Below, in pieces: positions 2,809 to 26,770 of a DNA stretch of 26,770 nt. The position numbers and the translations under genes were made by a program. Source of the stretch: a virus. Under the pieces are notes generated by a model. The model worked only from the letters and a program-made list of their open reading frames with translations, ran no database searches and was not told the DNA's origin. Within the stretch, counting starts at the first letter, position 1, and every line of letters begins with the position of its first letter. The DNA lies in IMG/VR virus record IMGVR_UViG_3300009481_000079, positions 1 to 26,770 of that record. One strand, written 5' to 3'.

Positions 2809-3729
2809 ATGGCAAATTTTAGTGCCGCGTCAGCGATGAATACAACTACTCAGGATAAATTTATTCCTGAATTGTGGAGTGATGAAGTTGTTGCCGCTTA
2901 TAAAAGTAATTTAGTACTAGCAAACCTAGTTACTAGAATGAATCACAACGGAAAAAAGGGCGATACTGTCCATATTCCTAAACCTACTCGTGGTGATGCA
3001 AGTGCAAAAACTACGCGACAACAGGTTACTTTGATTGCTGCTACGGATACGGAGCTTTCCATTTCCATTGACCAGCACTATGAGTACTCTCGTTTGATTG
3101 AAGACTTGTTGGATAAACAAGCTTTGTCTAGTATGCGTGCGTTTTACACGGATGATGCGGGTTTTGCGCTGGCTAAACAAGTAGACACGGCTCTTTGGAC
3201 GCAATCATATGCGTTGCAGGGTGGTGATGGTGCTGCTGCGTATCATGGAGATACGGCTGTTATTGGTTCAGACGGTAGCACGTTATTTAGTGCAAGTCAA
3301 GCTGGTGTTGCTATTGCTGATGCTGGTTTGCGTAAAGTTATACAAACCCTAGATGATGCGGATATTCCTATGTCCGACAGATTCCTAGTGGTTCCTCCGG
3401 TTGAGAAGAAAAATCTTACCGGTATTGCTCGATTTACAGAGCAAGCGTATGTAGGTGAAATCGGTGGCGGTAATACAATTCGTAATGGTCTAATTGGAGA
3501 CCTTTATGGAATTCCCGTCTATGTGTCTTCAAATGCACCGACAAATAATAGTGCGCGTGCGTGCCTACTTTCCCATAAATCTTCGATGGTTATGGTAGAG
3601 CAGATGAGTGTTCGTACCCAAACTCAGTACAAACAGGAGTTTCTTGGTGATTTGTTCACTGCGGATACTATCTATGGTACTGGTGAACTTCGTAATGATG
3701 CGGGTATTTTAATCGCTGTTCCTACCTAA
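2809..3729 (+). CDS. Major capsid protein
   Basis: A 306-aa protein directly downstream of the scaffold gene, preceded by a strong ribosome-binding site (AAAGGAGA). The N-terminus MANFSAASAMNTTTQDKFIP leads into FIPELWSDEVVAAYKSNLVL and GDTVHIPKPTRGDAS, an arrangement seen in HK97-fold coat proteins of podoviruses. Later segments include the probable spine region (DAGFALAKQVDTALW) and a C-terminal beta-rich domain (GIPVYVSSNAP). The size fits an unprocessed coat protein, and no protease domain or maturation gene is seen beside it. Function is inferred from family resemblance plus gene order. Confidence 0.88.
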   Translation: MANFSAASAMNTTTQDKFIPELWSDEVVAAYKSNLVLANLVTRMNHNGKKGDTVHIPKPTRGDASAKTTRQQVTLIAATDTELSISIDQHYEYSRLIEDLLDKQALSSMRAFYTDDAGFALAKQVDTALWTQSYALQGGDGAAAYHGDTAVIGSDGSTLFSASQAGVAIADAGLRKVIQTLDDADIPMSDRFLVVPPVEKKNLTGIARFTEQAYVGEIGGGNTIRNGLIGDLYGIPVYVSSNAPTNNSARACLLSHKSSMVMVEQMSVRTQTQYKQEFLGDLFTADTIYGTGELRNDAGILIAVPT

Positions 3730-16575: not shown

Positions 16576-17130
16576 ATGGACTCATTTATACGGGGATATA
16601 ACGACGTACTAGATAAAGATATATTGGACAGGGTTATTGCAGCGTTTGAGGAGATACAAAAAAACTCCGGGTACAACGGCGATACTCAGTTTTCAGGTAG
16701 GGCTGGTAGGCATGACAGGTCGATTAATATAGAAGACCACAACTCTGCCCTAGCAGGAGCAGTAAACAAAGCCTTAAACCCCTACCTAAATGACTACTTA
16801 GCAGAATTTCCTGGTGGTGAAAATGTTAGCGTTATCGGATATAACATTAAGGTACAAAAGACTGAACCTACCGGTGGCTATCACGTTTGGCATTGTGAGC
16901 ATTCAGGAAAGGTGGGTACTAGTAACCGCGCTTTGGTGTGGGTATTGTATCTAAATGACATTGAGGAAGGTGGAGAAACTGAGTTTTTAAATCAGAAGCA
17001 GCGCATAGAGCCAGCAGCAGGACGCCTTGTAATTTTCCCAGCGGCGTTTCCTTGGCAGCATCGAGGTAATCCCCCGCTAGTAGGTACAAAATATATAGCT
17101 ACTGGTTGGTGGCACTACCATCTGGTATAA
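16576..17130 (+). CDS. 2-oxoglutarate/Fe(II)-dependent dioxygenase (prolyl 4-hydroxylase-like)
   Basis: A 184-aa double-stranded beta-helix oxygenase. Iron ligands by alignment to the P4H family are H106 and E108 (in YHVWHCEHSG) and H162 (in WQHRGNPPL), with K172 (GTKYIATGW) ten residues after the distal His, as expected for the residue that binds 2-oxoglutarate. LYLNDIEEGGETEFLNQ is the typical beta-hairpin between them. The usual HxD is HxE here. Such enzymes hydroxylate protein side chains while decarboxylating 2-oxoglutarate; substrate is unknown. Homologues are common in marine phages near structural genes, so a virion or host protein target is possible. GAGGAA lies 8-10 bases upstream. 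Confidence 0.85.
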   Translation: MDSFIRGYNDVLDKDILDRVIAAFEEIQKNSGYNGDTQFSGRAGRHDRSINIEDHNSALAGAVNKALNPYLNDYLAEFPGGENVSVIGYNIKVQKTEPTGGYHVWHCEHSGKVGTSNRALVWVLYLNDIEEGGETEFLNQKQRIEPAAGRLVIFPAAFPWQHRGNPPLVGTKYIATGWWHYHLV

Positions 17131-17519: not shown

Positions 17520-19169
17520 TCATACCCCGCATACTCCAGCGCCGCAAGGATCGTTTTCCTCGTAAACAACGCCTTTGTGCCTAACCGCTTCAGCGTAGTC
17601 AACGGCTGTAATAGGTTGTCCTCCTCTACTACCATCTGGGTAACAGGTAAGTCCACGTAATCTACTCGCGTACTTGGCTAGTATTTTAGCAAACTTATCC
17701 GCACCTAGAGTACCACTAGCAACTGTAGGAAGATTAATGGTTGACGAAATACTCTGGTCAACATAGTCCTGTATATCGGCTTGGAATTTAATTCGTTGTT
17801 CTGGTTTGCTGGATAAATCATTTGCCGAGTCTATTGATGATGGCTTAACGCCTAAGTGGTCAATAAGCGTTTGCGCCGTTCCATCCACACAAAACTCGTA
17901 CTTCCACCGAGTCCCCTCAGTAAGATACCTTCTCTTGTACGCAACAGCATACACGGGTTCGATACCTGTAGTGGTTCCGGCAAGTATTCCAATTGTTCCT
18001 GTAGGTGCTATAGCTCGATAGGCAACCGGCTTGGAGATATAGAGTCTATCACAATGTTCGTTAGCCGCTTTTTCAGACTCTGTTTTATACACATTTAACC
18101 ACTTGTGAAGCTCTGGACTTACTTCATAGTTGGAACCAGACTTAAGTAGCCATTCGTGGATACCCATAAGCCCAAGTCCGAGTCTTCGGTTTTTACTGCG
18201 AACCTTTTGAACTTTGTCATACGGTAAATCGGCCCTGACTGTTCCGCAGACCAAGAATTTTGAGGCGAGGGCAACCACATCTTTGAATTCTTCCAGACTC
18301 TCGATATTGCCCATATTGATTGAGCCAAGATTACATACGTCACTGTCATCCTCACTCGTAACCTCAGTACATGCGTTTCTAAGGGTCTCATTACTTTTGT
18401 CTCCGAAGTTAAAACTAAAGCCAGGTTCGCCAGTAGTAAGTGCTTGTTGACAGTTCTCTAAAAACACGGGGTCTTTCCAAGCATCGTCGCCTAGATTTAA
18501 CCAATCATCACTATAGTTTACCGAAATATTCGTCTGGTCTAGTGGGGCAGGAAAATTAAAGTTAACTTCTTTCGCTTGTGCCAGAGTTACTTTATCCGTG
18601 ATAGGCATGTTCTGCCAGTCCTTTGCATGTAGGAAGGCGCTAATGTCCTCATGTTCCCTGTCGAGAGAGGCATATATAGCAGACCTTCGAGAACCTCCCT
18701 GCATGACGTTCCTGCCTATTTCGTTAATCATATTCATAAGGGGTAGGGGTCCACTAGAAACACCGCCTGTGCGCGATAGGGCGCGTCCTGATGGCCTAAG
18801 AATAGAGTAGTCCACCCCTATTCCTCCCCCTAACATAAGGCAGCTATTTGCCCTCCATATTAAGTTAGACCACTCCTCGCGGGTATCTTCTTCAGCGCGT
18901 AAAAGAAAGCAGTTATTCCATGCGTGAAGCTTTCGACCTGCATAGTACAGGTATCTCCCGCCGGGAATAAACTTCATAGTAGTTATGTAGTGAACTAGTT
19001 GCTCGCGGTCATTCGTACCAAGAATGACATGATGCCCCGTACCCATGTCTCCGCACACGTCTTCCACGCATCGTCTAGCGAGGCATTGCCAACTGTCTGT
19101 TGGTCCTTGGGCATACTTTGTCCTAAATACGTTCTCGCCTAAAGTAGTGCGAAAAGAATTACTTTGCAT
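17520..19169 (-). CDS. nrdJ: Ribonucleotide reductase, class II (adenosylcobalamin-dependent) type
   Basis: A 549-aa compact reductase making deoxynucleotides from ribonucleotides for phage DNA synthesis. Visible residues: redox Cys C87 (NNCFLL); the radical site N265-A-C267-T-E269, equivalent to NxCxE; second redox Cys C279 (DVCNLGSINMGN); AIAPTGTIGILAGTTTGIEP, the phosphate-binding loop; and the C-terminal pair PCGAGVCGV that would be re-reduced. No ATP-cone and no partner small subunit are seen, which favours class II over class I. ATG at 19169 (MQSNSFRTTLGENVF) is chosen over the TTG at 19205 because the latter overlaps the upstream gene by 47 bp. Length and architecture match the B12-dependent enzymes of SIO1/cobavirus-type phages (established for that group; membership here inferred). 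Confidence 0.88.
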   Translation of the reverse strand: MQSNSFRTTLGENVFRTKYAQGPTDSWQCLARRCVEDVCGDMGTGHHVILGTNDREQLVHYITTMKFIPGGRYLYYAGRKLHAWNNCFLLRAEEDTREEWSNLIWRANSCLMLGGGIGVDYSILRPSGRALSRTGGVSSGPLPLMNMINEIGRNVMQGGSRRSAIYASLDREHEDISAFLHAKDWQNMPITDKVTLAQAKEVNFNFPAPLDQTNISVNYSDDWLNLGDDAWKDPVFLENCQQALTTGEPGFSFNFGDKSNETLRNACTEVTSEDDSDVCNLGSINMGNIESLEEFKDVVALASKFLVCGTVRADLPYDKVQKVRSKNRRLGLGLMGIHEWLLKSGSNYEVSPELHKWLNVYKTESEKAANEHCDRLYISKPVAYRAIAPTGTIGILAGTTTGIEPVYAVAYKRRYLTEGTRWKYEFCVDGTAQTLIDHLGVKPSSIDSANDLSSKPEQRIKFQADIQDYVDQSISSTINLPTVASGTLGADKFAKILAKYASRLRGLTCYPDGSRGGQPITAVDYAEAVRHKGVVYEENDPCGAGVCGV

Positions 19170-19401
19170 TGGTAGTACCCTTTTTAACAGTGTTATATTT
19201 ATCAACTACCTCATTGTAGCACTCTTGAAAATGCTCGTAGGTAAACTCCCAACTACCTCTAGTTAGGTTGAGTTTTGTCGTCATCAAAAGCATCGCCCCA
19301 TTCAAATAAGTCTCGTGTTCTATAGAGCCTTTTTTCTTTGCTGCGGTGGTACTTTTGTTTCGGGGCTTCGTGCTCTGTTTTGGTGTGTTTAAAGCGGTCA
19401 C
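19159..19401 (-). CDS. Hypothetical small protein (80 aa from GTG, or 41 aa from ATG 19284)
   Basis: The C-terminal ~40 residues (LNLTRGSWEFTYEHFQECYN, EVVDKYNTV) look like a real folded helical protein. The N-terminal part is Lys/Thr-rich and overlaps another plausible ORF in a different frame. GTG at 19401 has AGGA nine bases upstream; ATG at 19284 gives a 41-aa product (MTTKLNLTRGSWEF) with a poor ribosome-binding site. The stop overlaps the reductase start by 11 bases, so translation is probably coupled to the reductase gene. No family recognised. Confidence 0.5.
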   Translation of the reverse strand: MTALNTPKQSTKPRNKSTTAAKKKGSIEHETYLNGAMLLMTTKLNLTRGSWEFTYEHFQECYNEVVDKYNTVKKGTTNAK

Positions 19402-22043: not shown

Positions 22044-22592
22044 CTACGACGCTTTTTGTTGGTAGCCGTAGTCGATTGCTGCAGACTCCCAATCTTCCGG
22101 GGTGACTTCTTTGTCCTCAGTCAAGGGCTTTGGGGCGTCTGCTTCTCCGCTCGTGTAGTCAACGAACTTACGTGCCAGCGCGATAATGAGGTCGGCAGTA
22201 GCAGTGATGTCCGCACCCTCTTGTGTCGATGCTAGGATAACGTCTGCTGCAACTTTCATCATTGACTGTCGTTGAATGCACATGTCCCTGCTAAGGTTCT
22301 TATCTACACTCGCCGCCCCAACCGTGGATATGTTAGTGGCAGGGCTGGAGGCTGGAACCTTCTTGATGCTTTGCGGCGAGGCGTTGTAGTAGTCCTTTCC
22401 CCCAAACTCTTTGACTTCATACGTGAATGAGATATGGTCTCCGGGTTGCGCCGCCCAATCCTCTGCAGGAATGTGGTTAAACAGCTTATAGTACACGGGA
22501 TCATTCTCTAACTTAAATGACCCAGACGAACCACCACCCTTTTTTTCAAAGGGCTTGCCGATAAACGCTAATTGTCCGGTCTTTGTTGGCAT
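22044..22592 (-). CDS. Probable single-stranded DNA-binding protein
   Basis: A 182-aa protein between DNA polymerase and exonuclease genes. The N-terminal ~80 residues (LAFIGKPFEKKGGGSSGSFK, DHISFTYEVKEFGGKDYYN) look like an OB-type beta barrel with a basic/Gly loop. The central part has SRDMCIQRQSMMKVAADVIL, a motif (S.D..I.RQ...K.A) I associate with phage OB-fold replication proteins. The C-terminus is acidic (ADAPKPLTEDKEVTPEDWES) like the acidic tails of SSBs, though the last residues are not the usual phenylalanine-ended tip. AGGAG lies 8 bases upstream of ATG and a promoter stands before it. The SSB call rests mainly on context and tail. Confidence 0.6.
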   Translation of the reverse strand: MPTKTGQLAFIGKPFEKKGGGSSGSFKLENDPVYYKLFNHIPAEDWAAQPGDHISFTYEVKEFGGKDYYNASPQSIKKVPASSPATNISTVGAASVDKNLSRDMCIQRQSMMKVAADVILASTQEGADITATADLIIALARKFVDYTSGEADAPKPLTEDKEVTPEDWESAAIDYGYQQKAS

Positions 22593-22626
22593 ACTAATCT
22601 CCTGGTTTATGTAACATTACGTACTA

Positions 22627-22655
22627 ATTAAAACACATCTCGCGAAGTTTGTCAA
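22627..22655 (-). promoter_or_regulatory. Sigma70-type promoter for the SSB-exonuclease-reductase operon
   Basis: On the - strand TTGACA (22655-22650) is followed after 17 bp by TTTAAT (22632-22627), near-consensus for bacterial sigma70. The -35 overlaps the stop codon of the polymerase C-terminal gene, and the predicted start near 22620 leaves a ~28-base leader before the ssDNA-binding gene. Host RNA polymerase could drive the leftward genes from here. Confidence 0.7.
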
Positions 22656-23461
22656 GCGGCGTGTTTAACTTCCTCCAACGTTTTGCCGGTAGAGTAATCA
22701 ACGGGGAACTCTACAGGTGACTCCACTCCAAATAACTTATGCAGCGAGGCAGGTACACTTTCTAAAGATTGTTTAGCAGCGTGGACAGCATCCTCTAGCA
22801 AATTATCTGGAGCCTCCAACAGCACACTATCGTGGACTGTATTTAGCATTCGCACTTGCCCATCAAAATCGCGAGATAAATCCTCGTCAAGTACTCCCAA
22901 CATCATAATCATAATGTCTGCACCTGCGCCTTGGATAGGATAATTTTTAACCTTGGTGGGGCTAACCTTATACTCGCCGTTCCATTGGTCTGCTAAAAGA
23001 AAGAAGGCTTCTTTATCTCCCCATATGTTGCTCACGTAATAGCTGGGAATACTCAACGAGTCCTTACTCGATTCTCCTCGGTACTCGAAAGATGATTCTG
23101 CCTGTTTGAGCCAAGACTCTTGCCACTTTTTTACCTTTTTGTAGCGGTCGTAATAGTCCTTGATAAAGCCTTTTACGAGTTGTGTGTCAACGTTCCAACT
23201 CTCTGCGATGGACCTGTATCCTGCGCCGTATTGTAGTTGAAACGAGAATCCTTTGGCTAACTTGCGCTCTGCCTGAGACACCTCTTCAACGTCCTTGTTA
23301 AAGATTCTGCTGGCAAAATACGTGTGCATGTCCCGTCCAGAAACCAAGTCCTCAACTAGGTTTTTGTCACCAGTAGCCAAAGCAAGTACCCGGATCTCAA
23401 GCTGTGCATAGTCAAGCTCGATAAAAGTACCTTCCGCTTTAAAGTGACTGAGTATCGTCAT
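22652..23461 (-). CDS. DNA polymerase family A, C-terminal palm/fingers part (split gene)
   Basis: A 269-aa protein with the three polymerase motifs: A, ELDYAQLEIRVLA (D17); B, R66-KLA-K70-GFS-F74-QLQ-Y78-G; and C, NTVHDSVLLEAP (near residue 207). It lacks the exonuclease and the TGRLSS..NLQNI region, found in a separate gene ending 1.46 kb upstream. The residue equivalent to E. coli Pol I 762 is Phe (F74). The ATG at 23461 has AAGGA 11 bases upstream and overlaps the MazG-like gene's end by 23 bp. Catalytic residues are intact, so it presumably works by assembling with the N-terminal part; this is inferred. Confidence 0.88.
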   Translation of the reverse strand: MTILSHFKAEGTFIELDYAQLEIRVLALATGDKNLVEDLVSGRDMHTYFASRIFNKDVEEVSQAERKLAKGFSFQLQYGAGYRSIAESWNVDTQLVKGFIKDYYDRYKKVKKWQESWLKQAESSFEYRGESSKDSLSIPSYYVSNIWGDKEAFFLLADQWNGEYKVSPTKVKNYPIQGAGADIMIMMLGVLDEDLSRDFDGQVRMLNTVHDSVLLEAPDNLLEDAVHAAKQSLESVPASLHKLFGVESPVEFPVDYSTGKTLEEVKHAA

Positions 23462-23750
23462 TTTCTTTTATATCCTTAAGAGATAAGCCCAGACTCTCCA
23501 CATTCCGTTCGGCAATGTCCGCAAGTGACAACTCTAAGTCCTCGGCTAAGACGTTCGCGTAATACAGAACATCCCCCAAGTTTTCCATGAGTTGAAGGAT
23601 GTCTAACCCCTCGTCATCCACCATCTTCCGCACTTCCTTCGCTATCTTACCCGTTGCTTCGGAAAGACCCAGGCTGGGATAGATGACTTCATCCTCAAAG
23701 GGGTGGGTAATAGTCTCTCTAACAAGATTTGAATAGCCTCCAAAAGTCAT
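23439..23750 (-). CDS. MazG-fold NTP pyrophosphohydrolase-like protein, metal site degenerate
   Basis: A 103-aa protein starting MTFGGYSNLVRETITHPFED at ATG 23750, which has GGAGAG seven bases upstream and is offset one base from the previous stop. YPSLGLSEATGKIAKEVRK and LMENLGDVLYYANVLAEDL, then LSLADIAERN, follow the all-alpha MazG pattern closely. However, the four acidic metal ligands (ExxE and ExxD) align with A32, K35, N57 and D60, so three of four are replaced. Active MazG proteins hydrolyse NTPs, and phage homologues are thought to act on nucleotide or alarmone pools. This one may be inactive or regulatory. It lies last in the block separating the polymerase halves. Confidence 0.75.
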   Translation of the reverse strand: MTFGGYSNLVRETITHPFEDEVIYPSLGLSEATGKIAKEVRKMVDDEGLDILQLMENLGDVLYYANVLAEDLELSLADIAERNVESLGLSLKDIKENDDTQSL

Positions 23751-23751
23751 T

Positions 23752-24408
23752 TTACTCTCCTTTCTCTGCTGACCATGTTCCACACACTGTATCAGAAGAA
23801 TCACAAAAAGCGTGTGATTGTTGCGGAGGTTTTTCCAGTCCATCCGTCTTTGAGGTGCGGTGAAAACTAGCCAGTACCAGCATAATTTGCTCAAAATTTG
23901 CCTTATACTCGACCAGTATTTCGTGCTGTTCCAGAAGACTAGCCTCGTTCAGAATCAACCGAAGCTCTAGATTTGACACCGCCGCATCCAGCGCAGCCTC
24001 GTTGCGTTCGTCACTTTTTGACAATTTGCCGTGCAGTTCGCCGTATTCCGTATAAAGGTCGTGGAGTTGTCTTCCGTGACTCTCACGAAGCTGTTGCAGT
24101 GACAAAGAATAGGTAGCAGCAGCTTGAGCAATGTTGTCAGAAAGCCCTATCAAAATTTTGTCTGTGTCACGGTGCTTGCGATGGGAGACTTGCAAAGATC
24201 GCTGCGCACTGCCCAAACCTTTCCGCAACCCCCGCACGTTCGTATACAAATCCTCGTCGGTGAGGGTGCTGGCTGTCGAAAACTGCTCGAAATTATGCCC
24301 AAGCATACCGACCCACAGCAGCATTGCTGTCATGATGAATAAAAAAAGCCACCTGAGTCTAAGCAGAAAGGTTATTTTTTCTTGCGTTTTGTTGTCGTCT
24401 TCAGTCAT
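23752..24408 (-). CDS. Membrane-anchored coiled-coil protein, 218 aa, unknown function
   Basis: After a charged cytoplasmic N-terminus (MTEDDNKTQEK) comes one strong membrane helix (about residues 15-38, LLRLRWLFLFIMTAMLLWVG). Then follows a long polar helical region (about 60-185) with heptad-like spacing (SLSLQQLRESHGRQLHDLY, AVSNLELRLILNEASLLEQH), probably coiled coil. The C-terminus has two cysteines (CDSSDTVCG) that could form a disulfide if periplasmic. Positive residues before the helix favour N-in, with the coiled coil outside the membrane. It overlaps the DUF3310 gene by eight bases. Spanin, exclusion protein or membrane tether are all possible; none is supported specifically. Confidence 0.7.
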   Translation of the reverse strand: MTEDDNKTQEKITFLLRLRWLFLFIMTAMLLWVGMLGHNFEQFSTASTLTDEDLYTNVRGLRKGLGSAQRSLQVSHRKHRDTDKILIGLSDNIAQAAATYSLSLQQLRESHGRQLHDLYTEYGELHGKLSKSDERNEAALDAAVSNLELRLILNEASLLEQHEILVEYKANFEQIMLVLASFHRTSKTDGLEKPPQQSHAFCDSSDTVCGTWSAEKGE

Positions 24409-24637
24409 TGTTTGTCTCCATAGCTTCCGTGATTAACATGTCAACGTAATGTTTTGCTTTTCTCAAATCATCGACTCCACCCTTTTCGCGCCAGCGGCAA
24501 ACATACTTAATGACATTGCCCTCGGCAAATGGTACTCGATTTTTGATGCAAAAAACCACCGGCTCGATGGCATACTTTGTGTAATATTTCGGTCCATGAT
24601 TAGACAATTTGTTGTCCGTATTCGTAGGTCTTTCCAT
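24401..24637 (-). CDS. DUF3310 family protein (T7 gp1.7-related)
   Basis: A 78-aa protein with the DUF3310 core: KYYTKYAIEPVVFCIKNRVP, FAEGNVIKYVCRWREKGG and DDLRKAKHYVDMLI. T7 gp1.7, which contains this domain, is reported as a nucleotide kinase, so a role in nucleotide metabolism is plausible. ATG at 24637 is chosen for its GAGGA eight bases upstream; a TTG at 24652 would add five residues. It sits in the block between the polymerase halves and overlaps the next gene by eight bases. Confidence 0.85.
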   Translation of the reverse strand: MERPTNTDNKLSNHGPKYYTKYAIEPVVFCIKNRVPFAEGNVIKYVCRWREKGGVDDLRKAKHYVDMLITEAMETNND

Positions 24638-24648
24638 GTCTGCAATCC

Positions 24649-24870
24649 TCAAGAAATATTATCGAGCGCCCATCGTGCAATTTTGGTGGCGCTCATGTTG
24701 TTTTTGGATTTGTTCAAACGTTTTAGCTCAGCGATCCGGTTTAAAATTTGCTCATCGGTCCACGGTTTTGCTTGCGGATGCTGCTTACCAAAGAGCAATA
24801 CAACGATGTCCTCGCGTAACTTTTCTGCCTCCGCGCTCTTTTTTCTTCTGGTTAAAATTGTTTTTAGCAT
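24649..24870 (-). CDS. Hypothetical basic protein, 73 aa, first gene of the inserted block
   Basis: Starts at ATG 24870 (MLKTILTRRKKSAEAEKLRE). The N-terminus is strongly basic, and the C-terminal half (DEQILNRIAELKRLNKSKNN, MSATKIARWALDNIS) is helical and could contain a helix-turn-helix-like pair. There is no ribosome-binding site, and the predicted transcription start of the promoter just upstream coincides with the ATG, suggesting a leaderless message. An in-frame TTG at 24921 would overlap the polymerase stop codon and is not preferred. I do not recognise the family; DNA binding is a guess. Confidence 0.55.
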   Translation of the reverse strand: MLKTILTRRKKSAEAEKLREDIVVLLFGKQHPQAKPWTDEQILNRIAELKRLNKSKNNMSATKIARWALDNIS

Positions 24871-24877
24871 CTGTCGA

Positions 24878-24905
24878 ATTGTACATAAAATTAGCCTAAT
24901 GTCAA
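24878..24905 (-). promoter_or_regulatory. Sigma70-type promoter immediately after the polymerase N-terminal gene
   Basis: On the - strand TTGACA (24905-24900), a 16-bp spacer and TACAAT (24883-24878): perfect -35, five-of-six -10. It begins 13 bases after the polymerase stop, in the only noncoding gap of the block. The expected start at about 24871 is adjacent to the ATG at 24870. Confidence 0.7.
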
Positions 24906-24917
24906 GCTTTGATTTTA

Positions 24918-26123
24918 TCAACTGTCTTTGCCCGAAATATTTTGCATGTTCGGTTTCGAGCTTGTAAGGCGTCCGGTCTGAGCAATTGTATGGTTATACG
25001 AGGGGTGGACTCGTCCCAAACAAGCTCGGTCGATGTACGGGTCGAAGTAAGTGCTCGCAGATTTTGCCAGCGTCCTGAACTCAATTAAGTCTTCGCACAA
25101 CTGCTTGGTTTTGCTGTCGTGGAGCTTGATTCGCGAGAGTGCCTGGATGTCTGCATTTTTCTTCCAGTTGAAGCGTTCAAAATGATCTCTCGTTCTCTGT
25201 GTTGTGAGCCCCGGATGCATAACTTCACCTTCTGCGGTCCTGTACTTCGGTTCGCCCTTCTTGGGTCCGCTCTTGTAGAATGCGGGGATACCTTCAGCGT
25301 CGCGTACTCGTTCTTGGAGCGCCGTTTTGATAGGTCCACCCCACAACAAAGTTGCCATCTGCAGAGGACTCTCTAGGCTAAATGCCGCCTTTGCTTGGGG
25401 AGGCCACATCTTGGATAGGCTCTCCGTCAAAGTGTCCGCCGCAGCCTCCAGCTTGTGTTGCAGCGCGGTCCTTTCAACCTGTGCTGAATCCGTGTCGAAG
25501 GGCATACCAGAGTAAGACATTTTGGAGGTCACCATGACGCCTTGCATTAGCATGGAATGGTAGCTAGTGCAGGTTTTGGCCTGCTTCAAGAAAATATCTT
25601 TCGTTGCACGCACATCTTCCACCAAATACTTTGCAAGTAGCTCCCTGTCAATTTTGTCTGACCCTATGCCCACCTTAAACCGCTCCTTGACTTCGGTATC
25701 TTTGGTGAAGGGTACTTTCAACCTGTGTGCAGTGTTTTCGAGCGAAGGCATTACCTTGGACTTGCCTGTGGATAAGTATTCGTACACCTGCGTGTCGAAA
25801 ATTGGGAACAACGGTAGCTTGCCGAAGTATGGATACAAGTAGCCGAGGTCGAATGCGAGATTATGTCCAACAATCAGGGCATCGGATGTCAAGAATTTGC
25901 ACAACTCTTTCGGGTCATCCGTAACTTTAAAAGCGTCCTCCGGTAGTTCCTTTTCGCCGTTCATTTCTTTGCCGTAAAGCGTGCAATACCCCGCCAACAC
26001 GATACGGTTATCTGGATAAAATGACGCTGCGCCAAAATGAGGCTCAGGAGCGTTGATCGTGGTCTCCAGGTCCAATACGACCACACGCGTAAAGTCCGCC
26101 TTGAACCAATTATTTATACTCAT
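24918..26123 (-). CDS. DNA polymerase family A, N-terminal exonuclease/thumb part (split gene)
   Basis: A 401-aa protein starting MSINNWFKADFTRVVVLDLE at ATG 26123 (chosen over the start at 26177, which would add 18 residues inside the helicase gene). It has the DEDD 3'-5' exonuclease motifs: D18 and E20 (VVVLDLETT), the Exo II Asp in IVGHNLAFDLGYLYP (about residue 90) and the Exo III Asp in KYLVEDVRATKD (about 168). The thumb follows, ending with AQTGRLTSSKPNMQNIS (about 380-397), a conserved element just before motif A. It then stops (GKDS, TGA). Motifs A, B and C are in the downstream gene at 22652-23461. It overlaps the helicase stop by 14 bases. Confidence 0.88.
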   Translation of the reverse strand: MSINNWFKADFTRVVVLDLETTINAPEPHFGAASFYPDNRIVLAGYCTLYGKEMNGEKELPEDAFKVTDDPKELCKFLTSDALIVGHNLAFDLGYLYPYFGKLPLFPIFDTQVYEYLSTGKSKVMPSLENTAHRLKVPFTKDTEVKERFKVGIGSDKIDRELLAKYLVEDVRATKDIFLKQAKTCTSYHSMLMQGVMVTSKMSYSGMPFDTDSAQVERTALQHKLEAAADTLTESLSKMWPPQAKAAFSLESPLQMATLLWGGPIKTALQERVRDAEGIPAFYKSGPKKGEPKYRTAEGEVMHPGLTTQRTRDHFERFNWKKNADIQALSRIKLHDSKTKQLCEDLIEFRTLAKSASTYFDPYIDRACLGRVHPSYNHTIAQTGRLTSSKPNMQNISGKDS

Positions 26124-26770
26124 ATTGTCCCCGCATTGAGATAATTTGTGCACGTTCCTTGTCCAGCTTAATCGCACACCCTTCGCTACGAAAATCTGGG
26201 TGAGCTTTCGCTAGTTTATTCTTTGGTGCTCGCAGGAACCGCACATCTGCCCCCGCTTCGTTGTCTTGACCAATCATCAGAATAGCATCAGCTTCACCCT
26301 GTACGCTCGTTTTAGACCCATACAGCGTGCCTATTTCTGGGTACTTAACGTTATCCGCTGTACCGTCAATCTGGGTAGCGCCTATAACACACCCAAAATG
26401 CTTTGCGAGGTCACGGACGTATTGGGCTAGTTTAGCATACCGGTCAATGCCTGATAGTTCCTTCTCGAATCCACCAAGCTTCCAGATTTGATCAATAATA
26501 ATAATCTTGGGGTTATACGCTTCCATGGCAGCTTCAACGTCGTACACTGTCATAAACGACTTGTTCAAACTTTGAATGACGTTTGGACCTACTACTTTTC
26601 TATACGCTTCCACCGTCGCTCTGGTGTCCTTTTCCAACTCTGCATTTGTCCAGTTCAAAGCTGCCTGAACTCGACGCTGGGCTACCCTTTCCTCAGGTTC
26701 CTCGTTATTGCACCAAAGCATACATTCGCCCTCTTCAAGCTGCTTGGCAAAATGCACTGCTTGCGACGCC
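26110..26770 (-). CDS. Replicative DNA helicase, DnaB/RecA-type ATPase, C-terminal part (5' end outside window)
   Basis: The frame is open to the right edge and the residues before the apparent start (ASQAVHFAKQL) read on as the helix after a Walker A loop, so the gene is partial. Visible: MLWCNNEEPEERV; Walker B NPKIIIIDQIWKL; CVIGATQIDGTADN, the position of motif H3; and GEADAILMIGQDNE with RFLRAPKNKLAKAH, like the H4 region and arginine finger area of DnaB-type helicases. It would unwind DNA ahead of the polymerase encoded next. Any primase domain would be outside the window. A RecA-like recombinase is the main alternative. Confidence 0.75.
   Translation of the reverse strand, partial: ASQAVHFAKQLEEGECMLWCNNEEPEERVAQRRVQAALNWTNAELEKDTRATVEAYRKVVGPNVIQSLNKSFMTVYDVEAAMEAYNPKIIIIDQIWKLGGFEKELSGIDRYAKLAQYVRDLAKHFGCVIGATQIDGTADNVKYPEIGTLYGSKTSVQGEADAILMIGQDNEAGADVRFLRAPKNKLAKAHPDFRSEGCAIKLDKERAQIISMRGQYEYK

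Follow-up and report, generated by a model that had tools for sequence, protein, structure and literature searches.

A viral family A DNA polymerase probably made as two chains from genes parted by a cassette of small genes

We analysed the DNA polymerase locus of a 26,770-base virus record (IMG/VR record IMGVR_UViG_3300009481_000079, positions 1 to 26,770), which may be a genome fragment and is hereafter called the window. Its replicative polymerase is, with a probability of roughly 0.86, a family A enzyme (PolA) produced as two polypeptides from one operon that assemble as one polymerase. An earlier sequence-only reading had described PolA as divided into two parts by a 1.46-kb block of four genes. 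The coordinates and the Pfam matches of the two halves confirm this arrangement, as does the stop-to-start distance of 1,456 nt, within which four small genes lie on the same strand. The two halves are as follows.

24918..26123, minus strand: upstream PolA half, with the 3'-5' exonuclease, the thumb and the first palm motif (PF00476 profile positions 63-133, PF01612; phrog_17, phrog_9556)
22652..23461, minus strand: downstream PolA half, 269 amino acids, with motifs A to C, palm and fingers (PF00476 profile positions 145-379; phrog_2573, phrog_17)

The upstream half starts with an ATG at 26123 and stops with a TGA at 24918-24920 (minus strand), its C-terminal end being TGRLTSSKPNMQNISGKDS*. 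The downstream half starts with an ATG at 23461, reads MTILSHFKAEGTFIELDYAQLE at its N-terminus and stops at 22652-22654 (minus strand). Both match the Pfam DNA_pol_A profile (length 381), with E-values of 1e-14 for positions 63-133 and 2.5e-40 for positions 145-379. On the NCBIfam Pol I model the upstream half reaches position 640 and the downstream half resumes at 659; 13 residues stand for the ∼18 model positions at the break, so at most about five residues are missing, in line with the earlier claim that almost nothing is lost at the split. The break lies between the QNI(S) motif and the ILSHF/IKRC helix, as in Vibrio phage ICP2, and a helicase gene is found just upstream of the polymerase.

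Both parts had been said to keep their catalytic residues, and the full sets are indeed intact. Exonuclease residues D18, E20, N88, D92, Y166 and D170 of the upstream half are invariant in 17 relatives, and D17, R66, K70, F74, Y78, H210 and D211 of the downstream half are invariant in the aligned relatives. Membership of family A is further indicated by PF00476 in both halves, by motifs A, B and C with the catalytic Asp, and by the Pol I fold predicted for a fusion relative. Motif C of the window polymerase (22652-23461) reads HDS instead of the usual HDE; the same is seen in 17 of 17 aligned split sequences, so that HDS characterises the group and is no sign of damage. The ribosome-binding site that had been ascribed to the second part exists but is weak (AAGGA, ∼11 nt from the ATG), and translation of the downstream half may therefore also be coupled to the MazG-like gene that overlaps it. 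Searches for a second PolA, or for any PolB or PolC, were negative elsewhere in this 26.8-kb and possibly fragmentary record.

To place the window among its relatives, we collected polymerase loci from viral contigs and isolates. With repeats counted, the sample comprised 129 split loci and 62 one-gene loci; as the searches were seeded with split sequences and the same contig could recur, these counts are not natural frequencies. Most of the relatives come from metagenome assemblies that could not be checked against reads. An assembly error was considered as the cause of the split and rejected, because isolates as well as many contigs are broken at the same point. Clustering at 93% left 102 representative downstream halves, of which 32 share the break of the window (S1), 35 are broken some 15 residues later (S2, the kind found in phage MEP401) and 35 belong to one-gene polymerases. 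Among the 32 S1 representatives, about 20 have adjoining or overlapping PolA genes (-11 to +19 nt, with ATGA as the usual overlap), and 12 hold inserted genes at the junction. The nearest relative, L008, has halves 74% and 85% identical to those of the window and a cassette of 1,137 nt. The widest gap was seen in L053:4998-10467 (Caudoviricetes sp. ct2os315, Manatee Spring), whose halves are separated by 3.6 kb with about seven annotated genes, one of which encodes a cytosine methyltransferase.

In a tree of downstream halves, S2 formed a single clade (support 100), the window fell into a clade of 20 split and two one-gene rows, and the ICP2-like phages made up a second S1 group. In approximately unbiased (AU) tests, neither S1 as one clade (p-AU 0.544) nor a common origin for every split gene (p-AU 0.585) was rejected, and therefore one or two fissions are both possible. 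One of the two one-gene rows in the clade of the window stands a single base from a split form at the junction: L027, with a single 675-aa polymerase, is 88% identical overall to the split L026 and differs from it by one missing base at the overlap (TAATGAGTAAG versus AAATGGTAAG). Split and fused states can therefore be interconverted by a single base, provided that the missing base is not an assembly error.

In relatives, selection acts on both halves. In the L009 group of relatives, each half showed a non-synonymous divergence (dN) of 0.003-0.012 against a synonymous divergence (dS) of 0.13-0.28, with or without an insert, which on these sequence comparisons indicates strong purifying selection; simple dN/dS estimates for the window versus L008 were saturated at synonymous sites. 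Moreover, pairwise divergences of the upstream and downstream halves were correlated (r 0.89, S1). Structures were predicted from alignments of the window and viral-contig sequences only. The natural one-gene relative L027 gave a fold with a predicted local distance difference test score (pLDDT) of 87, its weakest segment (393-400) being the loop at which the others are split. This model matched the Bst Pol I large fragment (E 2e-29, template modelling score 0.80 by target length), and the one-gene form is thus predicted to adopt a complete Pol I large-fragment fold. The downstream half of the window alone reached an AlphaFold pLDDT of 92.7. Taken together, the retained catalytic residues, the low dN, the correlated halves and the predicted folds support two chains forming one enzyme. 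The earlier proposal of two intact polypeptides that assemble, with an operon-like cassette between their genes, is accordingly well supported, the physical assembly and the polymerase activity of the two chains being what we infer from this evidence.

We propose that one operon would yield a first chain made up of exonuclease, thumb and palm1 and a second made up of palm2 and fingers. The boundary would fall in the flexible loop that leads from the QNI motif to motif A, and the two chains would bind via the palm core and act as a single polymerase. For the fission of the ancestral gene, the simplest route would be a minor stop/start change after which the two genes overlapped. The junction could then have become a safe intercistronic spot that took up small genes, in relatives also those of HNH endonucleases, and swapped them; the window would carry one such cassette, of four genes. 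Several points weigh against this account. Fission, which need not have come about by a small stop/start change, may have preceded or followed endonuclease entry; HNH endonucleases were recognised in only three of the sampled lineages (the L009 group, ICP2 and L162) and not in the window; the record is possibly incomplete, and a further polymerase could lie outside it; and we found no biochemistry on split polymerases of this group in the open-access literature.

The cassette of the window consists of four genes.

24649..24921, minus strand: cassette gene 1, 90 amino acids, whose TTG start overlaps the PolA stop as TTGA (open reading frame list; no known family matched)
24401..24652, minus strand: cassette gene 2, DUF3310 protein, 83 amino acids from a TTG, with an ATG 15 nt further in (PF11753, E 1.6e-11)
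23752..24408, minus strand: cassette gene 3, 218 amino acids, with an ATGA overlap with gene 2 (sequence reading)
23439..23750, minus strand: cassette gene 4, MazG-like, the last 23 nt overlapping the downstream PolA half (phrog_229, E 2.9e-11)

Gene 3 likely encodes a membrane/coiled-coil protein, judging by a hydrophobic N-terminal segment and a likely coiled coil in its translation. It had no homologue in the phage collection searched; a homologue (40%) does occur in the junction cassette of L008. The start of the MazG-like gene is preceded by GGAGAG, and this gene too has a homologue in the L008 cassette, which is without DUF3310; a homologue of the DUF3310 protein is present in the junction cassette of L085. 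In family and profile searches none of the four genes matched a homing endonuclease. The claim that the split comes without a homing nuclease hence holds for the window but not for its relatives, which carry HNH endonucleases at the exact junction.

How variable the junction is became clear from contigs whose downstream halves are > 93% identical, in which four alternative contents were found at exactly the same stop/start position. L009 contains an HNH_3 endonuclease gene there (tested in this contig), and the insert is shared by L010, L012, L028, L031 and L016, the last of which has a truncated downstream half. The junction of L011 is occupied by an MT-A70 methyltransferase gene, that of L015 and L029 by an 89-aa gene of unknown family, and that of L013 is empty, the PolA genes overlapping by 1 nt. 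In this empty form, identity to the others falls to only ∼82% over the final 50 nt of the upstream half, versus ∼95% elsewhere. Outside this set, ICP2 has an annotated HNH gene at the junction and L162, of the S2 group, an HNH_3 gene, while Vibrio phage Saratov-12 has 9 nt there. Cassettes are mostly without homology between lineages; a related small open reading frame recurs inside the MEP401 group. The start of most cassettes lies no more than a few bases from the upstream stop, an arrangement suggesting that translational coupling is kept across them. From these sequences, the PolA junction seems to be an insertion hotspot, a landing site used repeatedly by small genes.

Homing is a likely part of the history of this junction, because relatives carry HNH genes exactly there; that HNH homing drove the insertions is suggested by analogy with T4-type phages. 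On a tentative view, to which we give somewhat less than even odds, the fission of polA is old and the junction a stable docking site: HNH genes would enter repeatedly and harmlessly at the stop/start overlap and bring in, or yield to, methyltransferase, DUF3310, MazG-like and membrane-protein genes. If true, this would provide phages with rapidly swappable early genes within the replication operon.

Could the two halves nevertheless be united into one polypeptide? The block might be a gene-bearing group I intron whose removal by splicing would give one polymerase; such introns are known in phage PolA genes (according to references cited in PMC10580990), and the ICP2 polymerase is annotated as a two-piece join. 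However, a search of 22500-26200 gave no Rfam match at E 1, and inserts from different lineages mostly bear no relation to each other. Downstream halves possess a start of their own, and upstream halves are closed by a stop that follows a short added tail. The ∼20 relatives in which the genes abut have the same break and leave no room for an intron. With no insert at the break in those phages, their polymerase cannot be the product of splicing one out, and we consider an intron in the window very improbable. Joining by programmed ribosomal frameshifting or by protein splicing is no easier to credit. In abutting relatives the downstream frame does overlap the stop codon of the first gene, and in L027 a shift by one base is enough for an open fusion. 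Yet the last 60 nt of the abutting junctions examined contained no slippery heptamer, and in the window 1.46 kb of other genes separate the halves; protein splicing is opposed by the lack of an intein (Hint) domain in either half at E 1 and by halves that end a few residues from the break.

That the halves are remnants of a decaying polymerase, with the phage relying on another one, is the faintest of these prospects: an incomplete record would leave room for it, but dN/dS is very low in the L009 group, the catalytic sets are full and conserved over many lineages, and the record encodes no other PolA, PolB or PolC. An unlikely though more serious alternative concerns history only. Insertion of a homing endonuclease into an intact polA could have caused the split, later losses then giving abutting genes and the same two-chain enzyme. 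The HNH genes at the junctions of the L009 group, ICP2 and L162 would fit this order of events, as would the precedent of phage Aeh1, in which insertion of mobE divided nrdA into a functional two-piece enzyme (available text of PMC2988022). Against it, abutting genes are the commonest state in the clade of the window, recognised HNH carriers are scattered, and the recent pairs represent insertion into, or loss from, genes that were already split. The root of the tree fits both orders of fission and endonuclease entry.

Split PolA as such is already known, and the suggestion that this split might be undescribed did not stand: it appears in PMC10580990, in PMC10143988, in the ICP2 annotation and in PHROGs, which contains families that match only one polymerase half each. 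MEP401, MEP402 and most of their metagenomic relatives have a split PolA, for which an intron was considered and the question left open (PMC10580990), and a few Zobellviridae have the polymerase domains as separate genes (VirClust paper, PMC10143988). As in the window, MEP401 and MEP402 (Zobellviridae) have a gene for the exonuclease and N-terminal polymerase part followed by one for the C-terminal part, with small open reading frame(s) between. In contrast to the window, their break lies ∼15 residues further on, directly before motif A (NFDGEIKTLFxSRY*/MLLQADAKQLEW), their downstream halves form a separate clade that excludes the window, and one small open reading frame, not four, occupies the junction. 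ICP2 and Saratov-12 (Zobellviridae, Icepovirus) share the break point of the window (QNISN* / MSDIKRCIxSRF) and the helicase gene just upstream. Their halves are only ∼30% identical to those of the window, and the single HNH gene of ICP2 and the 9 nt of Saratov-12 take the place of its four cassette genes. The ICP2 annotation (NC_015158 40112-42680) gives a single polymerase protein whose two pieces are joined over the HNH gene; this joined annotation may be wrong, as Saratov-12 suggests two separate proteins.

Two systems from T4-like phages offer parallels, both described in the available text of PMC2988022. Aeromonas phages 25 and 44RR encode their replicative polymerase in two genes (gp43A/gp43B), like the window, but the enzyme is of family B and broken at another point; the phage 25 halves co-purify and are active, and a homing endonuclease or an untranslated spacer is present at the split. 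NrdA of Aeh1, split by MobE, likewise combines an HNH endonuclease with an essential enzyme encoded in two genes and working as a complex. This enzyme is a ribonucleotide reductase, the endonuclease lies within the gene, and that text reports no alternative cassettes. In T4-type phages mobE overlaps the nrdA stop as UAAUGA, and the products of split nrdA and gene 43 still function. In the open-access literature we did not find stated the earlier break with overlapping genes, the evidence against splicing, or alternative cassettes at one junction.

Where the published account of split PolA left splicing open, the ATGA-overlapping relatives speak strongly in favour of two chains. This makes a two-subunit enzyme of family A something that biochemistry can address directly, and a natural model of how a polymerase can be split; the alternative cassettes between nearly identical polymerases provide a testable system for the exchange of small early phage genes.

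The genome around the polymerase appears mosaic (2809-3729 and 17520-19205). Among the matches listed, the best-scoring one for the capsid protein was from Mastigocladus phage CHP58 (E 3e-28), and the capsid gene matches other phage groups before the ICP2/Saratov-12 group; the ribonucleotide reductase shares 59% identity with its counterpart in Roseobacter phage CRP-3, and the polymerase is of the ICP2 kind. In addition, a 2OG-Fe(II) oxygenase gene at 16576-17130 (plus strand) adjoins the meeting point of the two gene arms.

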